Shown piece after piece: positions 10,322 to 21,737 of a stretch of DNA of 64,000 nt (within the stretch, counting starts at the first letter, position 1; each line of letters begins with the position of its first letter). A model generated the notes under the pieces. The model saw only the letters and a program-made list of their open reading frames with translations. It had not been told where the DNA came from and ran no database searches. Both the position numbers and the translations under genes were made by a program. The stretch comes from an uncultured Acidimicrobiia bacterium (GTDB taxonomy: Bacteria; Actinomycetota; Acidimicrobiia; Spongiisociales; Spongiisociaceae). The stretch is taken from contig OY282370.1 of NCBI GenBank assembly GCA_958295745.1, positions 1,607,724 through 1,671,723 of the forward strand. Direction: 5' to 3'.

Positions 10322-10735
10322 TCAGATGCGTTCGAGCACGATGACCGGGATGACCCGCGAGGTCTTGGCCTCGTAATCGGCGAACATGGGGTGGTCCTGT
10401 TTCTGGCGGCGCCAGATACGCTCCCGCTCTTCTCCCTCGGCGACCCGGGCACTGACCTGGATGGTCTCGGTTCCGACTTCCACCTCGGTGCGGGGGTTGG
10501 CTGCCAGGTTGTGGAACCAGTCGGGGTTGGTGTCCGCTCCGGCCTTGGAGGCGAAGACGGCGTAGCCGCCCTCCACGTCCTGGTACATGAGGGGGCTGAC
10601 CCTGGCAGTGCCCGTCCGGGCGCCGACATGGTGGAGGAGCAGCAACGGCTTGCCTTCGAACATGCCCCCTGCCCGGCCCTCGTTAGCGCGGAACTCCTCT
10701 ATCACCGCCCGATTCCAGTCGTTCAGATCGCTCAT
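10322..10735 (-). CDS. Deazaflavin (F420)-dependent nitroreductase family protein
   Basis: A 137-residue protein of the Ddn/DUF385 split-beta-barrel family, which binds coenzyme F420 and reduces nitro or quinone-type substrates. The recognisable segment runs from LLLLHHVGARTGTARVSPLMY through FASKAGADTNPDWFHNLAAN to a C-terminal barrel strand with RVIPVIVLERI. The Lys/Asn-Pro-x-Trp region is the F420 phosphate-contacting part in relatives. F420 use agrees with the cofC gene at 28.7 kb. The physiological substrate is unknown. Confidence 0.85.
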   Translation of the reverse strand: MSDLNDWNRAVIEEFRANEGRAGGMFEGKPLLLLHHVGARTGTARVSPLMYQDVEGGYAVFASKAGADTNPDWFHNLAANPRTEVEVGTETIQVSARVAEGEERERIWRRQKQDHPMFADYEAKTSRVIPVIVLERI

Positions 10736-10830
10736 CCGCCCTTCTCCTTGCCGTATGCCGAGGGTGTCCCCGGTCTCAGGCCGGAGGATGGCACAGTCCC
10801 GGACTTACCGGAGCGGGAGGTGCCGGAGGA

Positions 10831-11034
10831 CTACTCGGCGGCGGACAGAACGGCGGGATGACCTTCGTGCCGACCTTCGATCCGGGCGATGCTCCTGCCG
10901 TTCGCCGCCACCTGGCGGTTCAGGTCGCGGAACTGCAGGTCGATCCGGTCGAACCTCTTCACCAGGAAGCGCCAGAGCAGTGAGCCGCCACCCACGACCA
11001 GCACCGGATTGATCCAGAAAGATAGAAAATCCAT
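10831..11034 (-). CDS. Small protein with one TM segment and a helical tail
   Basis: A 67-residue ORF with a hydrophobic N-terminal segment (FLSFWINPVLVVGGGSLLW) and a charged helical tail (FDRIDLQFRDLNRQVAANG) likely to form a coiled coil. It diverges from the McrBC operon across a 170-base gap. No strong ribosome-binding site is visible. It is plausible as a gene, but the function and its link to the restriction system are unknown. Confidence 0.4.
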   Translation of the reverse strand: MDFLSFWINPVLVVGGGSLLWRFLVKRFDRIDLQFRDLNRQVAANGRSIARIEGRHEGHPAVLSAAE

Positions 11035-11194
11035 GTTTACCAGTATACGAATATTCCGAACTTTGCAACCCCCTTGTTCCCCGTGCCTCCGTCATTTCTG
11101 TCACACGCCCTCCGTATAGTGTTGATGACGGACAGACGACGGCGCGGCGGCGCCCGCCGAGGTTGGCGCCGCGGGAACTGACGGTTACGGCATC

Positions 11195-11200
11195 AGGAGG
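11195..11200 (+). promoter_or_regulatory. Ribosome-binding site of mcrB
   Basis: AGGAGG lies 6 bases before the ATG at 11207 and fixes the mcrB start. It contrasts with the leaderless arrangement of the HEPN and Fic genes. Confidence 0.7.
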
Positions 11201-11206
11201 ACGATC

Positions 11207-14014
11207 ATGACGAACGGAGAGGTCACCGACCCACAGGAAATCGAGTTTCGACGCCGGTGGTACGAGGCGCACCTCCGCCAAGTCGAACCGAACTATGAAC
11301 AGGCCTCCGGATGGGTGGAGAAATACTACGCCGGAGCTTCCGAGGCAATAGCAATTCGGGATGCTCTGTCCGTCCACGGAGATCTGGAGCGGTTCAGGCT
11401 GGATCTGCAAGCTTGGTCGTCTAAGCCCGACACCGAGGGGTTCAAGGGGGCGGCGGGCGCCGGGTTCGTCCACCTGCTCGTTAAGCACACCGATGATCGC
11501 GCCGAGTTGGCCCGGTTGCTCGCCGACGCGCTCACCGCACCCCGGGACCGTTCAGCCGCGGCTCAGAAGCTGGATACGCTGATTGAGCACATTGAGCGGA
11601 TAAAAGTCGGGAGTGTCCCGGCACCCGGGCATGCCCCCTTCCTGCTTTCCTATTTCTGGGGTCTGGATCAAGACTCTCGGTGGCCGGTGCTCTGGCCCAG
11701 CGGCCGCCAGTTTCTTGAGTTTGTGACCGGGCGTCAGCTCCCGAAACCCTCCGGCGAACGCTACCTGCGATATATGGATCAGGCGAGGGATCTCGATGAC
11801 GATCCCGATCGGTTCCAAGTAGTGGCAGGCTGGTGGGACAGTAACAAACCCGTCTTCTTTGACCAGGTTCTGATGGATCGCTGCGTCTTCGGGATGGAAA
11901 TTGCCTCAAGCGGGGACTACGGGGACTATGAGAGGGCTCAGGATAACGGATATGTATTGTCCTGTATTTCCCGATACATAAATCGGGAACTGATAGATGA
12001 TCTTTCCAACATTGTAGGTCAACCATTCAAAAGTAAGAATCCGTTGCCGACATGGGGACGAGGATCGCCTATTCCTCGACCTAACATCTGGACAAGTTGG
12101 GGGATCAGAGGTAGTACTATGGGTTTGTATCTGAGCGTAACCAACCAGGGTGCCTCTATCGGGATAAGACCGGGGTGGGTTCGAAAGGGATGGTACTCTG
12201 AAGCTAGGGAGATTTTCTCCGATGCCAATGTGGACAGCTTTCGCATTTTTTCTATGGGGCAAACGAATACTGCCAGGGGCGGAGACCTAGGATTGATAGG
12301 AGGTCATGGTGAGTCGATCTACGGGCGCGGTTATGAACCCGATCAGCTAGCTGGCTTAGACCTCCGCGCCGAGATAATAGAGGTGGCGTATGCGGCTCGA
12401 CCAGTGATCGAAGCTCTGGTCGATTTGGCCGACAGCAATCCTCGAGTTACCCCCAGTACTAATGATATGCTCGTGCCCATTGTCAAGCAGTTTCTCCAAG
12501 AGACTGGCTACCCAGATGAGCGTGATGTCGAAAACAAGGAAATCCAACCGACGTTCCGGCAGATGCTTCTTTCTGACAACCTGCCTGTGGCTGAGCGCTC
12601 CGACCTTCGGAAGATATGGTCGGGCCAAAAGAACGGATATGGACACCCTGGTGTTCAGCCCGCTTTGCATGCCTCGGTCAAGAACGCTGCCGACGCCGAG
12701 TACCAACGGATCCTCAATACCTTCGACTTCTTGTGCTGGGGCGAAGGCGACGACGCTGATCGGATCGACGCGGTGCTGGATGATTCGTCCTACAAGGTGC
12801 GTGGATTGGGCGAATCGGTCGTTCTCAAGCTGCTGGCCATCTGCCATCCGGACCGCTATCTGTGCGTCTATCCCTACCGGGGTACCCGGGGGAAGCTGCG
12901 GATGCTGAGAGTTCTCGGGCTCGAGGAACCATCCCGAGAGGCCAGTATCGGACGCAGGCACGTCGAGGCGAACGACCGGCTTCGGGAACGGCTCAAGCCC
13001 TTCTTCCCCGACGATCCGTGGGGCATGATGAAGTTCCTCTACTGGTATGCCGACCGGAAAGATGAGCTTTCCACTCCTGTCGGCGAGCCGGACGACCCTA
13101 TCAAGGAGGCCGCCGAGGACCTGTTGGTAGACCGGCGTTTCCTGGATGACATCGTGGAGCTGTTGGAGGACAAGGGGCAGGTGATCCTCTACGGGCCGCC
13201 CGGCACCGGCAAGACCTACCTGGCGCAGAGGTTGGCCAAAGCTATGGCGCCCGACTCCGACTACCGGGCTCTCGTGCAGTTCCATCCTTCCACCTCCTAC
13301 GAGGACTTCTTCGAGGGCTATCGGCCCGATCCGACTGCGGACGGAGGGATCAGCTACCAGCTGACGCACGGTCCGCTGGCCCGCATGGCCAAACACGCCG
13401 AAGAGCACCCGAGACGTAGGCACGTCATGGTCATCGACGAGATCAACCGGGCCAATCTGCCCCGGGTGTTGGGCGAGCTGCTGTTCCTATTCGAGTATCG
13501 GGACGAGTGGGTGTCCACCCTGTACCGGGCCGACGAAGAGTTCAACCTGCCCAAATCCATCTGGTTCATCGGCACCATGAACACCGCCGACCGGTCGATC
13601 GCGCTGGTGGACGCCGCCCTCCGCCGGCGCTTTCACTTCGTACCCTTCTTCCCCGACCGCGGCCCCACCGAAGGGTTGCTCGAACGTTGGCTGGGACGAA
13701 AAGGCCAACCCGCATGGGTGGGCGAGCTGGTGGCCATGGTCAACAGCGAGCTGACCGAAAAGCTGAGCGTCGACCTCCAGCTAGGTGCCAGCCACTTCAT
13801 GCGGGAGGGTTATCTGTCCGAGCCCGGAGAGGACGACCAGCTGTTGCGGAGGATCTGGGAATACAACATCGAACCCTTCATCGAGGACCAGTTTTACGGT
13901 GAACAGGACCGGATCAAGAGTTTCCGTTTCGGGAGGGTGATGTCCCGCTATCGCTCATCGGTCGAACCCGACCAATCTGAGGACGGGCCAGACGAGCAGG
14001 GCGGGATGCCGTGA
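11207..14014 (+). CDS. mcrB: McrB-type AAA+ GTPase of a modification-dependent restriction system
   Basis: A 935-residue motor subunit of a two-gene McrBC-type system; in the known system McrB binds modified DNA and uses GTP to translocate. The C-terminal third is the AAA+ module: Walker A GPPGTGKT (663-670), Walker B VMVIDEINRAN (about 741-751), and NTADRSIALVDAALRRRF (from 792) with the McrB sensor-1 region and Arg finger. The long N-terminal part should carry DNA recognition. I cannot assign its domains, except that residues about 505-570 (FLCWGEGDDADRIDAVL onward) look like the conserved linker seen in other long McrB proteins. Bases about 11,900-12,500 are clearly AT-richer than the AAA part. 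The mcrC start follows after one base. Confidence 0.9.
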   Translation: MTNGEVTDPQEIEFRRRWYEAHLRQVEPNYEQASGWVEKYYAGASEAIAIRDALSVHGDLERFRLDLQAWSSKPDTEGFKGAAGAGFVHLLVKHTDDRAELARLLADALTAPRDRSAAAQKLDTLIEHIERIKVGSVPAPGHAPFLLSYFWGLDQDSRWPVLWPSGRQFLEFVTGRQLPKPSGERYLRYMDQARDLDDDPDRFQVVAGWWDSNKPVFFDQVLMDRCVFGMEIASSGDYGDYERAQDNGYVLSCISRYINRELIDDLSNIVGQPFKSKNPLPTWGRGSPIPRPNIWTSWGIRGSTMGLYLSVTNQGASIGIRPGWVRKGWYSEAREIFSDANVDSFRIFSMGQTNTARGGDLGLIGGHGESIYGRGYEPDQLAGLDLRAEIIEVAYAARPVIEALVDLADSNPRVTPSTNDMLVPIVKQFLQETGYPDERDVENKEIQPTFRQMLLSDNLPVAERSDLRKIWSGQKNGYGHPGVQPALHASVKNAADAEYQRILNTFDFLCWGEGDDADRIDAVLDDSSYKVRGLGESVVLKLLAICHPDRYLCVYPYRGTRGKLRMLRVLGLEEPSREASIGRRHVEANDRLRERLKPFFPDDPWGMMKFLYWYADRKDELSTPVGEPDDPIKEAAEDLLVDRRFLDDIVELLEDKGQVILYGPPGTGKTYLAQRLAKAMAPDSDYRALVQFHPSTSYEDFFEGYRPDPTADGGISYQLTHGPLARMAKHAEEHPRRRHVMVIDEINRANLPRVLGELLFLFEYRDEWVSTLYRADEEFNLPKSIWFIGTMNTADRSIALVDAALRRRFHFVPFFPDRGPTEGLLERWLGRKGQPAWVGELVAMVNSELTEKLSVDLQLGASHFMREGYLSEPGEDDQLLRRIWEYNIEPFIEDQFYGEQDRIKSFRFGRVMSRYRSSVEPDQSEDGPDEQGGMP

Positions 14015-14015
14015 C

Positions 14016-15227
14016 GTGATCGACCTACCCACGCTTCACGAATACCAGTCCGCCGAGGTCCGCCTGTCGGACCGCCAAGCCCGGTTGCTCGCCGCCACCG
14101 GTTACCTGACGGTCTCCCCGCATCCCGATCCCGGGATCTGGCAGGTGAAGGCCCGCCAGTACGTGGGGTCCTTGGTGGTGGACGACATACGGATCCTGGT
14201 ACGGCCCAAGATCAAACCCGAGAACCTGTTCCTCCTGCTCGAGGTGGGTCTCCCGGAACGGGCCTGGCAGAAGGAGGTCTTCGACTACCACACCCATGAC
14301 GACCTGCTCCGTTCCATAGTGTCGTTCTTCGCCTGCACGGTAGAGACCACCCTCGCCCGCGGCCTGTTCCATTCCTATCGGGAGCAGAACGAGGACCTGA
14401 ATACCATCCGGGGCCGGATCGACTTCGGGAGGCAGCTGGCCCGCGCCAGCCTGCCCCTTCCCGTCGCCTGCAGGTACGAGGAGTTCACCGCCGATGTGGC
14501 CGAGAACCGCTACCTGAAGGCCGCCATCCGCCGCTCGCTGCGAGTGGCGGGGGTGCCGGCGGTCGACCGGCGTCGGCTGATGCGCGAGCTGGTCGCCATG
14601 GAAGAGGTGTCCGACGCCGCGGTGCGGGGCGGCGACCTCGACCATATCGACTTCACCCGGCTCAACCAGCATTACCGGCCCGCCCTCCGCCTAGCCCGGC
14701 TGCTGTTGGACAACCTGACCCTCGTAGACCAGCGGGGCGCTACGACTGCTTCCTCGTTCATGGTGGACATGAACGATCTCTTCGAGCGGTTCGTCACCGA
14801 GCGTTTGCGCCGCGCCCTGCAGGGCAGGCTGGCAGTGGAGAGCCAGAAGTGGATGCACCTCGACGTGGAGAACAAGGTGAGCATGAGACCCGACCTCGTG
14901 TTCCATCGCCCCGGTTCTGTTTCATCCGTTTACGTAGGCGACATCAAGTACAAGCTCGCAGACGACGCCCAAGGCCACCACGCCGATTACTACCAGCTGC
15001 TGGCCTACACCACCGCCCTCGACCTCCCCGAAGGGGTCCTGATCTACTGCCGGTCCGACAGCGGCCGCCCCGCCGGGGAGATCACGGTGCGCCACTCCGG
15101 GAAGAGGCTGGCGGTCCGGGCGGTGGACCTCACCGGCCCTCCTGCCGAGGTGGCGGCGGAGATCGAGCGCCTAGCCGACTGGATCGCCGACCGGGCCCAC
15201 CCGGCCCCGCTCTCTCTCGCCGGATAG
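14016..15227 (+). CDS. mcrC: McrC-type restriction endonuclease subunit
   Basis: McrC is the nuclease partner that docks on the McrB ring and cuts modified DNA. The 403-residue protein begins with the McrC beta-barrel region (YVGSLVVDDIRILVRPKI) and contains the TIRGRIDFGRQL block. It ends in a PD-(D/E)xK nuclease core: D293 in MRPDLVFH and D309-x-K311 in VGDIKYK. The GTG start one base after the mcrB stop indicates one operon. The last 25 codons (ERLADWIADRAHP onward) recur as relics downstream, between the duplicated membrane-protein genes. Confidence 0.92.
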   Translation: MIDLPTLHEYQSAEVRLSDRQARLLAATGYLTVSPHPDPGIWQVKARQYVGSLVVDDIRILVRPKIKPENLFLLLEVGLPERAWQKEVFDYHTHDDLLRSIVSFFACTVETTLARGLFHSYREQNEDLNTIRGRIDFGRQLARASLPLPVACRYEEFTADVAENRYLKAAIRRSLRVAGVPAVDRRRLMRELVAMEEVSDAAVRGGDLDHIDFTRLNQHYRPALRLARLLLDNLTLVDQRGATTASSFMVDMNDLFERFVTERLRRALQGRLAVESQKWMHLDVENKVSMRPDLVFHRPGSVSSVYVGDIKYKLADDAQGHHADYYQLLAYTTALDLPEGVLIYCRSDSGRPAGEITVRHSGKRLAVRAVDLTGPPAEVAAEIERLADWIADRAHPAPLSLAG

Positions 15228-15313
15228 GCGCCTTACATAGGAGGCCGCGCTCCAAGGCACTTCCGTCCATCCAATATATCTGCAGGCGCGGGTTTGCTCG
15301 TTATGCTCCGGTT

Positions 15314-16084
15314 ATGGCTCACCTGCAACTGCGTCCGCTCGGCGTCGGTGAGATCATCGACGCAACCTTCACACTCTATCGTCGGCGCTTCGGCCCGATG
15401 ATGATGATCGCCCTGGCTTTGGGGGTGATTCCTTTCGCACTCAGTCTGATCGGGGATTGCACCATCACGAGCACCCAGGACTTCGCCTGTGGGAACTTCT
15501 TGGGCTGGGTCGGACTGGTTGCCTTTGCGGTATCGACGTTCGTGGCGGTCTTCGCCGCCATCCTGGTGGCCGCCTCCGCCTACGCCGACCTTCCCCCCGA
15601 CTGGAGGGGAGCAACGGGGGTCGCGCTTCAGAACATCATTCCGATCGCGGCCGCCGCCATCGTATCCGGCGTCGTGGCCGCCTTAGGCTTTATCGCCCTG
15701 ATCGTTCCCGGGATTATCCTGGTGATCTCGTTCGAGTGGTACGGCGCGGCGTTGATGATCGAGAGGGTGGGGCCGATGGCGAGCCTCGGCCGTTCATGGC
15801 GTCTGGTCGCCGGTGAGCGTTGGCGGCTGTTCTGGGTGGTGTTGCTCTTGATCCTCATCTCGGTCATCGTGTTCTGGATCATCGGGATTGTCCTGTACTT
15901 CCTGATGTCGGGTCTCTTCGGCGCTGGCGACGGCTTCGCCTTCTACTTCATGAGCCAGATCGTTACCTTGCTGTTAATCCCGATGAGCGCCGCGTTTACG
16001 ACGGTCGTCTACCTCGATCTGCGGGTGCGCAAGGAAGGCCTAAACAAGGAAGGGCTCGCCGCCCAACTGTCCGGCGGGAACTGA
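15314..16084 (+). CDS. GDPD-membrane-domain-like protein, array copy 1 (type A)
   Basis: First of four tandem paralogues. The 256-residue integral membrane protein begins MAHLQLRPLGVGEIIDATF and continues TLYRRRFGPMM, the N-terminus typical of proteins annotated as glycerophosphoryl diester phosphodiesterase membrane-domain-containing. No phosphodiesterase catalytic domain is attached. Five to six hydrophobic segments surround the conserved motif LGRSWRLVAGERWRLF (about residues 161-176). The central part (FAAILVAASAYADLPPDW) is the A version. The start is the ATG at 15314. It follows mcrC by 86 bases. Confidence 0.85.
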   Translation: MAHLQLRPLGVGEIIDATFTLYRRRFGPMMMIALALGVIPFALSLIGDCTITSTQDFACGNFLGWVGLVAFAVSTFVAVFAAILVAASAYADLPPDWRGATGVALQNIIPIAAAAIVSGVVAALGFIALIVPGIILVISFEWYGAALMIERVGPMASLGRSWRLVAGERWRLFWVVLLLILISVIVFWIIGIVLYFLMSGLFGAGDGFAFYFMSQIVTLLLIPMSAAFTTVVYLDLRVRKEGLNKEGLAAQLSGGN

Positions 16085-16155
16085 TCCACCCGGTCAGTTT
16101 TCGAGCTTCGCCGGAGGCCCGCACGCTTGTCGGTAGAGCATCGACGGGTTGCTGC

Positions 16156-16233
16156 GGTGTCGGTGGAGGTCGAGCGCCTGGCCGACTGGATCGCCGCCCG
16201 GGCCCATCCGGCCACCTCGCTCTCGTCGTATAG
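16156..16233 (+). pseudogene. Relic of the 3' end of mcrC, copy 1
   Basis: Between membrane-gene copies 1 and 2 the DNA matches the last ~70 bases of mcrC almost base for base. In the right frame it still encodes VEVERLADWIAARAHPATS, against AEIERLADWIADRAHPAPL in mcrC, and ends in TCGTCGTATAG where mcrC has CTCGCCGGATAG. It lies in an otherwise non-coding spacer and is a by-product of the tandem duplication. Confidence 0.85.
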
Positions 16234-16316
16234 AGCCGGACAGAGGAGACCTCCACGAGGCATTCCGATCGTCCGCCTGCCTGCCGCAGGCTCGACCTCC
16301 CCTGTATTCTCTGGTT

Positions 16317-17105
16317 ATGGCTCAACTGCAGCTACGTCCGCTCGGCGTCGGTGGGATCATCGACGCAACTTTCACCCTCTATCGTCGGCGCTTCGGCCCG
16401 ATGATGAAGGTCGCCCTGGTATTGGGGGTGATTCCGTTCGCCATCACCCTATTCGGGGATTGCACCACCACGAGCACCTATAGCTTCGCCTGTGGAAACT
16501 TCCTGGGCTGGATCGGGTTGTCCGTGTTCTGGATCATGCTTACCGTGGCCACCTTCGCGTCTTACCTGATAGCCGCCGGCGCCTACACGGACTTTGCTTT
16601 CGACCGGCGAAGGGCTGCGCGCCTTGCGATCCAGAAGATAGTGCCGATCGTGGCAGCGACCAGCGTGTTCTGCGTCGTGGTCGGTATCGGTACCGGTACC
16701 TTCCTGTTGATCGTTCCCGGCGTCATCATGATGGTCTCAATCGTGGCGGTCTCGCTCGGGATGTACGGTCCTGCGCTGATCATCGAAGAGCTGGGGCCAA
16801 TGGCGAGCCTAGGCCGCTCGTGGCGTCTGGTCTCGGGCGAGCGTTGGCGGCTGTTCCTGGCGGGTTTGGTCGTCGTCGTCATCATGATCATCGGGTTCTG
16901 GATCAGCTGGTGGGTACTTTTCTGGATGTTGGGCATCTTCGGTGCCGGCGCCGGTTTCGCCCCCTACTTCTCGAGGCAGATCGTTACCTTGCTGACGATC
17001 CCGCTGACCGCTGCATTCACGACGGTCGTTTACCTCGATCTGCGGGTGCGCAAGGAAGGCCTAGACAAGGAAGGGCTCGTAGCCCAGTTGTCCGGCGGGA
17101 GCTGA
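16317..17105 (+). CDS. GDPD-membrane-domain-like protein, array copy 2 (type B)
   Basis: Second tandem paralogue, 262 residues, starting MAQLQLRPLGVGGIIDATF. N- and C-terminal thirds are nearly identical to copy 1. The middle differs (TFASYLIAAGAYTDFAFDRRRAARLAI) and matches copy 4 rather than copies 1 and 3, hence type B. It keeps LGRSWRLVSGERWRLF and the same C-terminal YLDLRVRKEG tail. ATG 16317 is chosen by identity to the other copies; the frame is open upstream into the mcrC relic. Function is unknown; membrane location is inferred from hydrophobicity. Confidence 0.85.
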   Translation: MAQLQLRPLGVGGIIDATFTLYRRRFGPMMKVALVLGVIPFAITLFGDCTTTSTYSFACGNFLGWIGLSVFWIMLTVATFASYLIAAGAYTDFAFDRRRAARLAIQKIVPIVAATSVFCVVVGIGTGTFLLIVPGVIMMVSIVAVSLGMYGPALIIEELGPMASLGRSWRLVSGERWRLFLAGLVVVVIMIIGFWISWWVLFWMLGIFGAGAGFAPYFSRQIVTLLTIPLTAAFTTVVYLDLRVRKEGLDKEGLVAQLSGGS

Positions 17106-17186
17106 TCCACCCGGACAATTTCAAGCTTTCACCGGAAGCCCGCGCCTTCGGGGAGGCCTGTCGGTAGAGCATCGACAGGTTGCTGT

Positions 17187-17263
17187 GGTGTCGGCGGATT
17201 TCGAGCGCCTGGCCGACTGGATAGCCGCCCCAGCCCACCCGGACGCTTCGCTCTCGTCGTATA
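17187..17263 (+). pseudogene. Relic of the 3' end of mcrC, copy 2
   Basis: The spacer between copies 2 and 3 holds a second mcrC-tail relic encoding ADFERLADWIAAPAHPDAS, followed by the same TCGTCGTATAG end as relic 1. It is in frame with copy 3, so a GTG at 17185 could in principle yield an N-terminally extended copy 3. The conserved MAQLQLRPLG start makes that unlikely. Confidence 0.85.
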
Positions 17264-17349
17264 GAGCCGGGCAGAGGAGACTTCCACCGAGGCATTCCGA
17301 TCGTCCGCCTGCATACCGCAGGCTCGACCGTCCCTTGTATGCTCCGATC

Positions 17350-18126
17350 ATGGCTCAATTGCAGCTGCGTCCGCTCGGCGTCGGTGGGATCATCGACGCA
17401 ACGATCACCCTCTATCGTCGGCGCTTCGGCCCGATGATGATGATCGTCCTGGTTTTGGGGGTGATTCCGTTCGCCCTCAGTCTCGGAAGGTGTACGGTCG
17501 ATAGGTCCCAGATGTCCGATCCCGTCACCTGCGGAAACGCCTTGGGCTGGGTCGGACTGATCGCTTTTTCGGTAGTGACGTTCGTGGCGGCCTTCGCCGC
17601 CATCCTGGTGGCCGCCTCTGCCTACGCCGACCTTCCCGCCGACTGGATGGGGGCAACGCGGGCCGCGCTTCGGAACATCGTTCCGATCGTGGTCGCCAGC
17701 ATTGTGTTCTACATCGTGGTCGGTATCGGTACCCTCCTGTTGATCGTTCCCGGGATCATCCTGGGGATCTCGTTCGGGTGGTACGACGCGGCGTTGATGA
17801 TCGAGAGGGCGGGGCCGATGGCGAGCCTCGGCCGTTCATGGCGTCTGGTCGCCGGTGAGCGTTGGCGGTTGTTCTGGGCAGGGTTGCTCATGCTCATCAT
17901 CGCAACCATCGTGTTCGGGATCATCGGGGTGGTCGTCTATCTAGTGATCTATGGTCTCTTCGTTGTGAGCGACGGTTACGCGTCCTACCTGGCTCAGCAG
18001 GCCGTCGCCTTGCTGACGATCCCGCTGATCGCTGCATTCACGACGGTCGTCTACCTCGATCTGCGGGTGCGCAAGGAAGGCCTAGACAAGGAAGGGCTCG
18101 TAGCCCAGCTGTCCGGCGGGAGCTGA
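17350..18126 (+). CDS. GDPD-membrane-domain-like protein, array copy 3 (type A)
   Basis: Third tandem paralogue, 258 residues, starting MAQLQLRPLGVGGIIDATI. The central segment FAAILVAASAYADLPADW is of type A, matching copy 1. It differs from copy 1 in the first extracytoplasmic loop (GRCTVDRSQMSDPVTCGN) and in the penultimate membrane segment. It shares LGRSWRLVAGERWRLF and the C-terminal YLDLRVRKEG tail. The start is set by alignment to the other copies. No enzyme motif is visible. Confidence 0.85.
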   Translation: MAQLQLRPLGVGGIIDATITLYRRRFGPMMMIVLVLGVIPFALSLGRCTVDRSQMSDPVTCGNALGWVGLIAFSVVTFVAAFAAILVAASAYADLPADWMGATRAALRNIVPIVVASIVFYIVVGIGTLLLIVPGIILGISFGWYDAALMIERAGPMASLGRSWRLVAGERWRLFWAGLLMLIIATIVFGIIGVVVYLVIYGLFVVSDGYASYLAQQAVALLTIPLIAAFTTVVYLDLRVRKEGLDKEGLVAQLSGGS

Positions 18127-18216
18127 TCCACCCGGACAAGGCGACCTCCACCGAGGCATCCGATCGTCCGCCTGCCTGTTTGCAGGGACCTGGACCACCC
18201 CTGGTATGCTTCGGTC

Positions 18217-18987
18217 ATGGCTCAACTACAACTACGTCCGCTCGGCGTCGGTGAGATCATCGACGCAACCGTCACCCTCTATCGTCGGCGCTTCGGCCCG
18301 ATGATGATGATCGCCCTGATATGGGGGGTGATTCCGTTCGCCATCACCCTGTTCGGGGATTGCACCGTCAGGAGCACCCAGGACATCGCCTGTGGAAACT
18401 TCCTGGGCTGGATCGGGTTGCCCCTGTTCTGGATCATGATTACCGCGGCTACCTTCGCGTCCTACCTGATAGCCGCCGGCGCCTACACGGACCTTGCTTT
18501 CGACCGGCGGAGGGCTGCGCGCCTCGCGATCGGGAAGATCGTGCCGATCGTGGCGGCGACCATCGTGTTCTACATCGTGGCCGGTATCGGGTTCGTTCTG
18601 TTGATCGTTCCCGGCATCATCATGGTGGTCTCGCTCGGGATGTACGGTCCTGCGCTGATGGTCGAGAGGGTGGGGCCGATGGCGAGCCTCGGCCGCTCGT
18701 GGCGTCTGGTCTCCGGCGAGCGTTGGCGGCTGTTCCTGGCGGGGTTGCTCATGCTCATCATCTCGATCATCGTGTTCGGGATCATCGGGCTTGTCCTTTA
18801 CTTCCTGATAGCGGGCCTCTTCGGCGCCAGCGACGGCTTCGCCTCCTACCTCTCGAGGCAGATCGTTACCTTGCTGACGATCCCGATGAGCGCCGCGTTC
18901 GCGACGGTCGTCTACCTCGACCTGCGGGTGCGCAAGGAAGGCCTCGACAAGGAAGGCCTCGCCGTCCAGCTGTCCGGCGGGAACTGA
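18217..18987 (+). CDS. GDPD-membrane-domain-like protein, array copy 4 (type B)
   Basis: Fourth tandem paralogue, 256 residues, starting MAQLQLRPLGVGEIIDATV, with the type B middle (TFASYLIAAGAYTDLAFDRR) shared with copy 2. Its upstream spacer is short: the mcrC relic has been deleted, and the sequence jumps from CCACCCGGACAAG straight to the common promoter-proximal segment. After its stop the common spacer resumes and breaks off inside the relic just before tRNA-Glu(TTC). All four copies are intact, so they may all be expressed. Confidence 0.85.
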   Translation: MAQLQLRPLGVGEIIDATVTLYRRRFGPMMMIALIWGVIPFAITLFGDCTVRSTQDIACGNFLGWIGLPLFWIMITAATFASYLIAAGAYTDLAFDRRRAARLAIGKIVPIVAATIVFYIVAGIGFVLLIVPGIIMVVSLGMYGPALMVERVGPMASLGRSWRLVSGERWRLFLAGLLMLIISIIVFGIIGLVLYFLIAGLFGASDGFASYLSRQIVTLLTIPMSAAFATVVYLDLRVRKEGLDKEGLAVQLSGGN

Positions 18988-19078
18988 TCCACCCGGACAG
19001 CTTCGAGCTTCGCCGGAAGCCCGCACATCGGGGACGCTTGCCGGTAGAGCATCGCCGGGTTGTTGTGGTGTCGGCGTA
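18988..19078 (+). repeat. Truncated copy of the array spacer with start of mcrC relic
   Basis: Downstream of copy 4 the spacer found after copies 1 and 2 recurs (CTGATCCACCCGGACAGCTT onward, through GGTAGAGCATCG). It ends at GGTGTCGGCG, the first bases of the mcrC relic. The breakpoint lies about 20 bases before the tRNA-Glu gene and marks the right boundary of the duplicated region. Confidence 0.75.
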
Positions 19079-19098
19079 GAATCCCCCCATATATCGCA

Positions 19099-19174
19099 GG
19101 CCCCGTCGTCCAGAGGCCTAGGACGCCGGCCTTTCAAGCCGGAAACGCGGGTTCGAATCCCGTCGGGGCCACCA
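19099..19174 (+). tRNA. tRNA-Glu (TTC)
   Basis: Cloverleaf by eye: acceptor GGCCCCG (19099-19105) pairs with CGGGGCC (19164-19170). The anticodon loop CTTTCAA carries TTC between CCGGC/GCCGG stems, and the T loop is TTCGAAT. The CCA end is encoded (19172-19174). It immediately follows the membrane-protein array. Confidence 0.95.
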
Positions 19175-19194: not shown

Positions 19195-19599
19195 TCAGAC
19201 CACGGGCAACCCCTCGGCGATCGCGGCTCGGTGGAGTTGGGTGTCCAGGGTTGCCAGGGGTGCTCGGCGTCTGACGGCCAGTTCCAGGTAGAGGCTGTCG
19301 TAGAAAGTCAATCTATGTGCTCTGGCCAGGTCCAGAGTCATGTCGAGGTCCGGGTTCGTGTCGGTCTGGATCGGCAGTCCATAAACTATTCGGAGACGCT
19401 TTTTGGTCTGCTCGACGGATAGTCGTCCTCGCCGTTCTCCGACAAGCAGTACGTTGCGCAGCTCCAGATGCCAGAGTCGGGGCACGACCGCCCCGCTTTT
19501 TTTGATGCGTATGAGCCCTCTTCCCGCCCGCTCGTCCTCCTTCTCGTCGTCGAACAGCCAGGCCGCGGCCAGAGACACATCGAGAACGCACGATCTCAA
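19195..19599 (-). CDS. vapC: PIN-domain toxin (VapC family)
   Basis: A 134-residue PIN-domain protein, a Mg-dependent ribonuclease fold used by VapC toxins, which commonly cut tRNAs or rRNA. Acidic positions expected for the site are visible: Asp in SCVLDVSLAAAWLF, Glu in LWHLELRNVL, Asp in LTFYDSLYLELA and Asp in LATLDTQL. The TTG start overlaps the antitoxin stop by four bases (TTGA), the normal antitoxin-first arrangement. The target is unknown, but the module sits between tRNA genes. Confidence 0.85.
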   Translation of the reverse strand: MRSCVLDVSLAAAWLFDDEKEDERAGRGLIRIKKSGAVVPRLWHLELRNVLLVGERRGRLSVEQTKKRLRIVYGLPIQTDTNPDLDMTLDLARAHRLTFYDSLYLELAVRRRAPLATLDTQLHRAAIAEGLPVV

Positions 19600-19853
19600 T
19601 AGCGGTGGCCTTCGTGACGGGCGGCAAGTATTTCCTCCCTAGTCATCTTGATCCCGAGCCGTTTCGATTCGGCGCGTAGTGCCCGGACCCGTTCCACCGC
19701 CTCGCTGTAGTCGGCGCTCTCTTGTACGTGGGCGGGCACCAGATGCGCGACGGTCTTGCCGTGGCGGGTGATGGCGATGGTCTCCCCCTGCTCGGCCAAG
19801 CGGAGGAACTCGGCCAGGCGCGCTTTGGCTTGGGTGGCTTGGACTGTACGCAT
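19596..19853 (-). CDS. vapB: Phd/YefM-type antitoxin
   Basis: An 85-residue antitoxin starting MRTVQATQAKARLAEFLRL, with the Phd/YefM DNA-binding core (GETIAITRHGKTVAHLVP) and a charged C-terminal tail that would wrap the PIN toxin. The start at 19853 gives the family N-terminus; the frame is open upstream but has no support there. Two palindromes and a TATAAT box lie just upstream, consistent with autoregulation. Confidence 0.85.
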   Translation of the reverse strand: MRTVQATQAKARLAEFLRLAEQGETIAITRHGKTVAHLVPAHVQESADYSEAVERVRALRAESKRLGIKMTREEILAARHEGHRY

Positions 19854-19910
19854 GATACCAACCGGTTGATCTGACCGGTCAATTATATGGGCAAACCGGC
19901 AGTGGCGCAA
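19854..19910 (-). promoter_or_regulatory. Promoter/operator of the vapBC-type module
   Basis: On the minus strand TTGCGC (19905-19910), a 17-base spacer and TATAAT (19882-19887) form a promoter. Two 8-base palindromes, GACCGGTC and AACCGGTT, lie between the -10 box and the ATG and are likely antitoxin-binding operator half-sites. Confidence 0.6.
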
Positions 19911-20088: not shown

Positions 20089-20161
20089 GGCCCCGTCGTC
20101 TAGGGGCCTAGGACGCCGCCCTCTCAAGGCGGAAACGCCAGTTCAAATCTGGTCGGGGCTG
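20089..20161 (+). tRNA. tRNA-Glu (CTC)
   Basis: Acceptor GGCCCCG (20089-20095) pairs with CGGGGCT (20154-20160), including one G-U pair, with discriminator G and no encoded CCA. The anticodon loop CTCTCAA between CCGCC and GGCGG carries CTC; the T arm is GCCAG-TTCAAAT-CTGGT. Its 3' end is duplicated 232 bases downstream. Confidence 0.92.
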
Positions 20162-20525
20162 CGACGAGAACGGTCCGGTCGGGCGCGCCGTCTTGGGGTG
20201 AACGACCGGGCTTTTCTTTGTTGTGGGGGCCTGTTCACCGTGTCTCGGTTGGAGTGAACACCCTCAACTCGACACCCTCAGCCCGACTTGTCGACTATCC
20301 AGAGATCGGCCACGTCCAGATCGGCCCACGTTCATCCCGGTTCTTCCCGTCCGCAGCAAGGTGCCGTCTCCTCTTCGAATCTGGTCGGGGCTGCGACGAG
20401 AACGGTCCGGTCGGGCGCGCCGTCTAGGGGTGAACACCCTCATCCCGACACCCTCAGCCCGACTTGTCGACTATCCAGAGATCGGCCACGTTCGTTCCGG
20501 TTCTTCCCGTCCGCAGCAAGGCGCC
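20145..20525. repeat. Imperfect tandem duplication of tRNA-Glu(CTC) 3' end and glycerate-kinase 3' end
   Basis: Two copies, about 20145-20363 and 20377-20525. Both begin with the tRNA 3' end (AATCTGGTCGGGGCTGCGAC), continue through GGTCCGGTCGGGCGCGCCGT and a GAACACCCTCA segment, and end in CGGTTCTTCCCGTCCGCAGC. Copy 1 has about 56 extra bases in the middle. On the minus strand both copies encode VADLWIVDKSG-stop, the C-terminus of the glycerate kinase; the live gene uses copy 2. The stretch between tRNA-Glu and glycerate kinase holds nothing else. Confidence 0.85.
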
Positions 20526-21737
20526 GGCCTGTTCCAGGTAAGGGTAGGAGTCGCATTCGTTCAGATGACGGCGGGCCGGGGCGGGGTCGTTGACCGTGGC
20601 GCCGTCCACGCATCCCCCGGCGGCGTCGGTGGGGCCGTCTATCCCGTCGGTTCCGAAAGCCAGGAACCGGTGGGAGGTCCCCGCTATTTCTATGGCGGCG
20701 GCCAGGGCGGCATGTTGGTTGCGGCCTCCGCGTCCGCGGCCGGTCACCTCCACGGTCGTCTCGCCGACCAGCACCCGGGCGGTGCCTTCGGGGGTGGCGG
20801 CGAGGGCGCGCCGTACCGCCTCACGCGCCTGCCCCGCCAAGGGAACGGGGTCGAGCACCGCTTCCAACCCCGCCTCCGACAGGTGTCGGGCGGCGGCCCT
20901 TCCCGCCGTGAAACCGTCGGCCAGGATCAACGCGCGGTGCGCGGCGGGCGGTTCCTGTACGGACGGCGCCGCGGGCCGATCCGATGCTCGTATCAGGTCG
21001 GCCGCCCGCCCGCCGATCGAGTACCGGTCGAGCAGCTCGGCCGGGCCGGCCTCCGAAGGCGGGGGCGGCACGGTGGGGCCGGACGCCACGACCGCCGGGT
21101 CGCGGCCGGCGTCGGAGACGATCAGCGTCACCACCCGCCCGCGGCATCCGGCGGCCAGGCGGCCTCCCTTTACCTTCGACACCGCCCGGCGTACCTCGTT
21201 GATCGCCCCGATGGGGGCGCCGGATCGGATGAGCCTGTCGTTCAGGTCCTGCAGGTCGTCGAGGGTAAGGCCCGCCGCGGGGGCCTCCATCAGCGCCGAC
21301 CCGCCGCCCGACGCCAAGGACAACAGCATCTCGCCCCGGCCCATCCCCTCCGCCAAGGCGATGGCCGCATGCGCCGCCCGCACGCTGTGGCGGTCGGGAA
21401 TCGGGTGGCCGGACACGATCAGCTCCGCCCACTCCGGGGCATCACCCGCTTCGTCGGTGACCACCAGCCCCCGGGAGATGAAAGACCCCAGGACCTGGCC
21501 GGCCCCCCGGCTCATACCGAGGGCCGCCTTCCCGAAGGCCAGCACCACCGCCCCCTCCGCCGGAATCGGCTCCCCGCCCACCAGGACCCCCCCCTCGCTC
21601 CGGCTCAGCGCCTCGCGGACCAGCCGGTCCGGGGCGGCGGCCTCCAGAGCGGCGTCCACCGCGCCCAGCAGGCGGCGAGCCGCAGCAGGATGGGACGAAC
21701 GCAGATCATCCAACCGCCCGGCCGCGAGATCCGTCAT
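20454..21737 (-). CDS. Glycerate 2-kinase (MOFRL family)
   Basis: A 427-residue kinase that phosphorylates D-glycerate, usually to 2-phosphoglycerate, feeding glycolysis. Visible features are an N-terminal Rossmann-like part (VVLAFGKAALGMSRGAG), LLSLASGGGSALMEAP, INEVRRAVSKVKGGRLA and VSDAGRDPAVVASGPT. The MOFRL C-terminal domain has ETTVEVTGRGRGGRNQH and FGTDGIDGPTDAAG. The canonical VSDVxGD motif reads VSDAGRD here. It lies 13 bases downstream of the PIG-L gene start-to-stop on the same strand. Its 3' end is duplicated (see repeat). Confidence 0.92.
   Translation of the reverse strand: MTDLAAGRLDDLRSSHPAAARRLLGAVDAALEAAAPDRLVREALSRSEGGVLVGGEPIPAEGAVVLAFGKAALGMSRGAGQVLGSFISRGLVVTDEAGDAPEWAELIVSGHPIPDRHSVRAAHAAIALAEGMGRGEMLLSLASGGGSALMEAPAAGLTLDDLQDLNDRLIRSGAPIGAINEVRRAVSKVKGGRLAAGCRGRVVTLIVSDAGRDPAVVASGPTVPPPPSEAGPAELLDRYSIGGRAADLIRASDRPAAPSVQEPPAAHRALILADGFTAGRAAARHLSEAGLEAVLDPVPLAGQAREAVRRALAATPEGTARVLVGETTVEVTGRGRGGRNQHAALAAAIEIAGTSHRFLAFGTDGIDGPTDAAGGCVDGATVNDPAPARRHLNECDSYPYLEQAGALLRTGRTGTNVADLWIVDKSG

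Follow-up and report, generated by a model that had tools for sequence, protein, structure and literature searches.

Tandem duplication across borders that share 9 bp of microhomology has been shown in Escherichia coli and Bacillus subtilis (PMC11111574). In such laboratory duplication–amplification systems, the unit is joined end to start by a single novel junction, the match between the borders is short, and further copies can arise through homology between the repeats. Here, we describe a natural locus that is alike on each of these counts: four membrane protein genes lie in tandem between mcrC and a tRNA-Glu(TTC) gene, and the parental borders match over about 10 bp. Two differences stand out. 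The event is old, with copies now at 70–79% protein identity, and its junction is read from relics and from single-copy relatives rather than from laboratory selection. We consider it very probable that a single illegitimate tandem duplication founded the array and that ordinary homologous recombination then shaped it. The duplication scar is clearly readable, ordinary in kind, and well documented here. As a natural record of gene amplification in bacteria, the locus is unusually complete: the junction and its two parental endpoints, a relative with a single copy, later exchange between copies, and a secondary deletion are all visible.

The array and its single-copy counterparts

The features of the locus are given in Table 1, numbered from the first base of the window, that is, the whole 64,000-nt stretch analyzed. 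The array begins downstream of mcrB and mcrC, which are adjacent and recognizable by their domains, as in described McrBC type IV restriction systems; mcrB orthologues likewise adjoin mcrC in five relatives (G004, G007, G008, G011, and G012).

Table 1. Coordinates of the array, its mcrC relics, and the flanking features
Feature	Position	Strand	Basis or remark
Window in the contig	G000:C1:1607724-1671723
mcrB, AAA+ subunit, 935 aa	11207..14014	+	Pfam AAA_5, E 1.6e-23
mcrC, 403 aa	14016..15227	+	Pfam PF10117 McrBC, E 2.3e-54
Source of the relics, last 85 nt of mcrC	15143-15227	+
5' parental breakpoint zone in mcrC, TGCCGAGGTGGCGGCG	15143..15158	+	12/16 identical to 19061-19076
Membrane gene copy 1, 256 aa	15314..16084	+	ORF; family occupies the same place in relatives
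Relic 1 of the mcrC 3' end, spacer after copy 1	16150..16233	+	score 103, shuffle maximum 41
Membrane gene copy 2, 262 aa	16317..17105	+	79% identity to copy 4
Relic 2 of the mcrC 3' end, spacer after copy 2	17181..17265	+	score 84, shuffle maximum 42
Membrane gene copy 3, 258 aa	17350..18126	+	mosaic: middle copy-1-like, 3' end copy-2-like
Spacer 3, 90 nt, shortened, relic gone	18127..18216	+	length and identity to spacers 1 and 2
Membrane gene copy 4, 256 aa	18217..18987	+	ORF
3' parental breakpoint zone, TGTTGTGGTGTCGGCG, end of the duplicated unit	19061..19076	+	common to spacers 1 and 2
TAGAAT, -10-like box 5' of tRNA-Glu, beyond the duplicated unit	19077..19082	+	conserved in relatives
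tRNA-Glu(TTC)	19099..19174	+	ARAGORN

Among the 15 genomes of the family, the multi-copy array occurs in this genome only. Specifically, G004, a member of the same family but of another genus, carries mcrB, mcrC, one membrane gene, and tRNA-Glu(TTC), in that order. In G001 and in eight genomes of a third genus, a single membrane gene and tRNA-Glu occupy the same place, with no mcrBC there and with the same aminotransferase and nitroreductase genes flanking the locus. The G004 arrangement thus corresponds, as far as gene order can tell, to the predicted pre-expansion state, which bears out the claim of an initial annotation of this DNA that the first membrane gene adjoined mcrC before the array expanded. 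No relative of copy 4 emerged from a scan of GTDB contigs.

Cargo varies among relatives in the slot that separates the nitroreductase gene from the tRNA-Glu-linked membrane gene (window 10735-15313; L039-L048): this genome has mcrBC, G004 has both ADP-ribosylglycohydrolase and mcrBC, G001 has an ADP-ribosylglycohydrolase-like gene, and the third genus has Rieske-type plus cytochrome-P450-like genes. The cargo genes other than mcrBC were named from sequence by eye, except the G004 ADP-ribosylglycohydrolase, which matches PF03747. McrB has 935 aa here and 735 aa in G004, where ~180 residues separating the N-terminal part from the AAA domain are missing; the long form is found in four genomes of another genus. 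On the far side of the array, a PIN/Phd-YefM toxin–antitoxin-like pair (19195-19871, minus strand) sits between tRNA-Glu(TTC) and tRNA-Gln(CTG). Short direct repeats, including repeated segments of 65 and 41 nt, lie 3' of tRNA-Glu(CTC) at 20125-20526, and among them is a second copy of the 3' end of that tRNA (20357-20435, 87%).

mcrC relics and the duplication junction

The spacers after copies 1 and 2 contain remnants of the mcrC 3' end. Over the last 85 nt of mcrC, spacer 1 (16085-16316) aligns with one gap, and its score lies far above those of 1000 dinucleotide shuffles (mean 22.7); spacer 2 (17106-17349) exceeds its own 1000 shuffles likewise (Table 1). When 64 nt of mcrC (15143-15206) were scanned ungapped across the whole window, the two relic sites matched at 56/64 and 53/64 positions, and other sites outside mcrC reached at most 37/64. 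The region is rich in GC, and the initial annotation, which had noticed both relics, named chance similarity between GC-rich sequences as the reading that could overturn it. The shuffle scores rule that reading out, and we assign it a negligible probability. The relics are slightly longer than the ~75 bases first proposed, spanning ~85 bp and reaching the position of the mcrC stop codon. Spacers 3 and 4 score at chance level against mcrC (21 against a null mean of 20.0, and 20 against 20.3, respectively); the relic is absent from spacer 3.

The relics appear to be without function and to drift at the rate of the surrounding spacer. Relics 1 and 2 are 87% identical, and the neighboring spacer is 89% identical. 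Relic 1 is 88% identical to mcrC, a comparison in which one lineage, the relic, has been free to change, and the post-stop spacers of the first and second units, where both lineages have been free to change, are 70% identical. This pattern matches the prediction for neutral decay. Near the relic end, small indels shift the frame, and the in-frame mcrC stop is lost. Could these stretches instead be regulatory elements or small-peptide genes held by selection? They are still 81–88% identical to mcrC, and the mcrC frame is mostly open in spacers 1 and 2. Such selection is, however, very unlikely: divergence between the relics keeps pace with that of the adjoining spacer, their ends carry the frameshifts and the lost stop, spacer 3 has lost its relic while copy 4 remains intact, no comparable element precedes the gene in relatives that lack mcrBC at this site, and the likely promoter, TANNNT 6–7 nt before the ATG, lies outside the relic.

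Reading the relics as dead mcrC sequence, we turn to the junction that they preserve. Alignment of all spacers shows that spacers 1, 2, and 4 correspond from the end of the gene as far as position 19076. Past that point, spacers 1 and 2 turn into the mcrC tail, and spacer 4 proceeds as TAGAATCCCC. The tRNA-Glu gene begins 16 nt after TAGAAT; TAGAAT or TAGGAT occurs at a similar distance 5' of the same tRNA-Glu in 10 relatives, with GCG directly before it in eight of the ten, as in this genome. The conservation of this box indicates that the right-hand part of spacer 4 is ancestral. The first description had the spacer after copy 4 stopping just inside the relic. That is literally right, since spacer 4 shares with spacers 1 and 2 the first 16 columns only of the mcrC-like stretch (19061-19076), but a truncated relic is ruled out because the sequence runs into the conserved box upstream of tRNA-Glu. 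Spacer 4 is better read, on its alignment, as the parental downstream flank, and as the original flank it marks the second parental endpoint. The sequence 5' of the tRNA in G004 aligns with spacer 4 no further than the promoter region, so this comparison confirms only the last bases of spacer 4 as ancestral.

Both endpoints can be placed side by side. The two 16-nt zones are identical at 12 positions, and in their last ten positions GGTGTCGGCG of the downstream flank matches GGTGGCGGCG of mcrC at nine. Matches this good occur at 2 of 12138 position pairs between the two endpoint regions, and a short match of this kind is expected of short-homology illegitimate recombination. At the sole mismatch in the last ten, spacers 1 and 2 carry the flank base (GGTGTCGG, not GGTGGCGG) and then the mcrC bases, so the crossover is confined to about CGGCG. 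The duplicated unit starts ~20 codons short of the mcrC stop, takes in the membrane gene, and ends immediately 5' of the -10-like box that precedes tRNA-Glu(TTC). Thus, as had been proposed, it combined the mcrC end with a membrane gene: in spacers 1 and 2, the mcrC tail follows the 3' flank of the gene. The units lie head to tail with one novel junction, unit end to unit start, and the relatives carry single copies, with mcrBC (G004) or without it (G001 and the eight), all as expected of a tandem duplication.

Relics 1 and 2 share this one junction together with derived changes relative to mcrC (CTGGCC, GCCGCCC, and TCGTCGTATAGA). In the stretch after the relic, spacers 1, 2, and 3 are mutually 83–89% identical and are 66–70% identical to the spacer before copy 1. 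Together, these features indicate that the junction arose a single time and was then carried along when the second unit was copied. A single illegitimate event would therefore have made the junction, and later copies would have inherited it. Across 28 mcrC-tail positions past the junction, relic 1 agrees with mcrC at 26 and relic 2 at 24, and the relics agree with the G004 mcrC at 23. These few positions suggest that the duplication postdates the split from G004, with which the restriction of the array to this genome agrees.

The notion is that the ancestral locus would have held a single membrane gene just 5' of tRNA-Glu(TTC), with mcrBC arriving directly before it, as the relatives show. Recombination or a replication slip would then have joined GGTGTCGGCG, before the -10-like box of the tRNA, to the similar site GGTGGCGGCG in mcrC, yielding a second unit composed of an mcrC tail, a promoter, and a membrane gene. 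The junction is observed; the process we infer from the junction only.

Exchange between copies and loss of a relic

Once ~1 kb direct repeats existed, unequal crossing-over would presumably have raised the number of units to three and then four, and the copies would later have exchanged sequence. Exchange itself is evident from mosaicism. Between positions 350 and 735 of the unit alignment, 55 sites pair copy 1 with 3 and copy 2 with 4 (13|24), and 3 sites support 14|23; after position 735, 11 sites support 14|23, pairing 2 with 3 and 1 with 4, against 1. This switch between the middle and the 3' part is highly significant (Fisher p 2e-9). Third-codon-position identity between copies 1 and 3 ranges from 97% to 50% along the gene. 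The mosaic assignment of copy 3 rests on such segment identities and on the 2:2 site patterns.

Since the copies exchanged sequence later, the full order of duplications cannot be recovered. The history of the locus is thus readable, as originally asserted, in its junction, endpoints, and deletion, and is blurred by the mosaic copies in its order. The most economical account is that unit 1 gave rise to unit 2 with its junction, that more unit-2-type copies followed, and that the middle of copy 3 was converted from copy 1. The 3' flanks of copies 1, 2, and 4 resemble one another to the same degree (87–90%), and the outlier is the spacer before copy 1 (66–70%). A simple stepwise order predicts that the copy-1 3' flank should be an outlier, and it is not, so conversion must be invoked.

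Alternatively, copies 3 and 4 may have arisen jointly through duplication of a two-gene block (1–2). In the middle of the gene, copies 3 and 4 look like copies 1 and 2, respectively, and 62 sites back 13|24 against 10 and 19 for the other pairings. We regard this origin as unlikely. With no relic after copy 4, it would require a further illegitimate junction between copies 2 and 3, but spacer 2 repeats both the junction and the derived changes of spacer 1. Moreover, the 13|24 signal stops at ~735, where the 3' part turns to 14|23, a switch better explained by conversion of copy 3 by copy 1, or by exchange.

The locus also records a loss. Spacer 3 is 90 nt long versus 232 nt for spacer 1 and 244 nt for spacer 2, and its right part is 83–88% identical to both. 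It joins CCCGGACA of the gene 3' flank to a GGCGACCTCC-like stretch; at this place, spacer 1 has CCGGACAGAGGAGACCTCC. In the last step of the proposed history, a deletion of ~140–155 bp took the relic before copy 4, the explanation already offered on first inspection. The deletion probably occurred between CCGGACA-type repeats, presumably by a repeat-mediated step.

The membrane protein, its neighbors, and its probable promoter

The nearest described family of the encoded protein is only weakly matched. The second halves of three of the four copies resemble GPDPase_memb (PF10110)/DUF975-like multi-helix membrane proteins (E 3e-5 to 5e-4). The PF10110 scores of copies 1, 3, and 4 (19.4, 23.3, and 20.6 bits) lie below the curated cut-off of 29.6, and copy 2 gave no match. 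The membrane proteins showed no phosphodiesterase domain. The protein is mostly helical; its predicted structure is of low confidence (mean pLDDT 64.5).

The membrane genes are not a constant component of McrBC systems. In four of the genomes with a single membrane gene at tRNA-Glu (G007, G008, G011, and G012), mcrBC lies elsewhere without the membrane gene, and the membrane gene occurs without mcrBC beside it in G001 and the third genus. PADLOC gave no match for the two membrane gene copies tested, and a literature search for McrBC next to duplicated membrane genes returned nothing relevant. A defense role for the membrane genes thus finds no support in PADLOC or in gene order. The membrane genes are probably tied to McrBC by position alone, an accident of proximity, so the array should not be called a defense component.

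The relatives also retain a second, distant paralogue of the membrane gene (31–38% identical), which lies before a nifU-like/meaB-like cluster (L070, L071) and, in G011, after rpiB. Here, the rpiB, nifU-like, and meaB-like genes adjoin one another (L072; G000:C1 ~1592.4-1596.2 kb) and the paralogue is missing, while the tRNA-Glu-linked paralogue is amplified. A tblastx comparison of the paralogue loci with the window gave scattered short matches only. We speculate, as a rather doubtful idea, that array expansion and divergence replaced the distant paralogue apparently lost here. If so, a chance-born array beside mcrC, with a promoter in each unit, would represent compensatory amplification after paralogue loss.

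Regarding that probable promoter, TANNNT ends 6–7 nt 5' of the ATG in all 14 tRNA-Glu-linked genes (4/4 copies and 10/10 relatives), and the motif stands 5–8 nt before 1.5% of all ATGs in the window. Its presence before every copy implies that each duplicated unit probably carried its own promoter. Such a signal ~12 bp before the start codon is a mark of leaderless genes, which are common in Actinobacteria (PMC3160421), and TANNNT upstream of each copy (window 15270-18219) suggests leaderless transcription.
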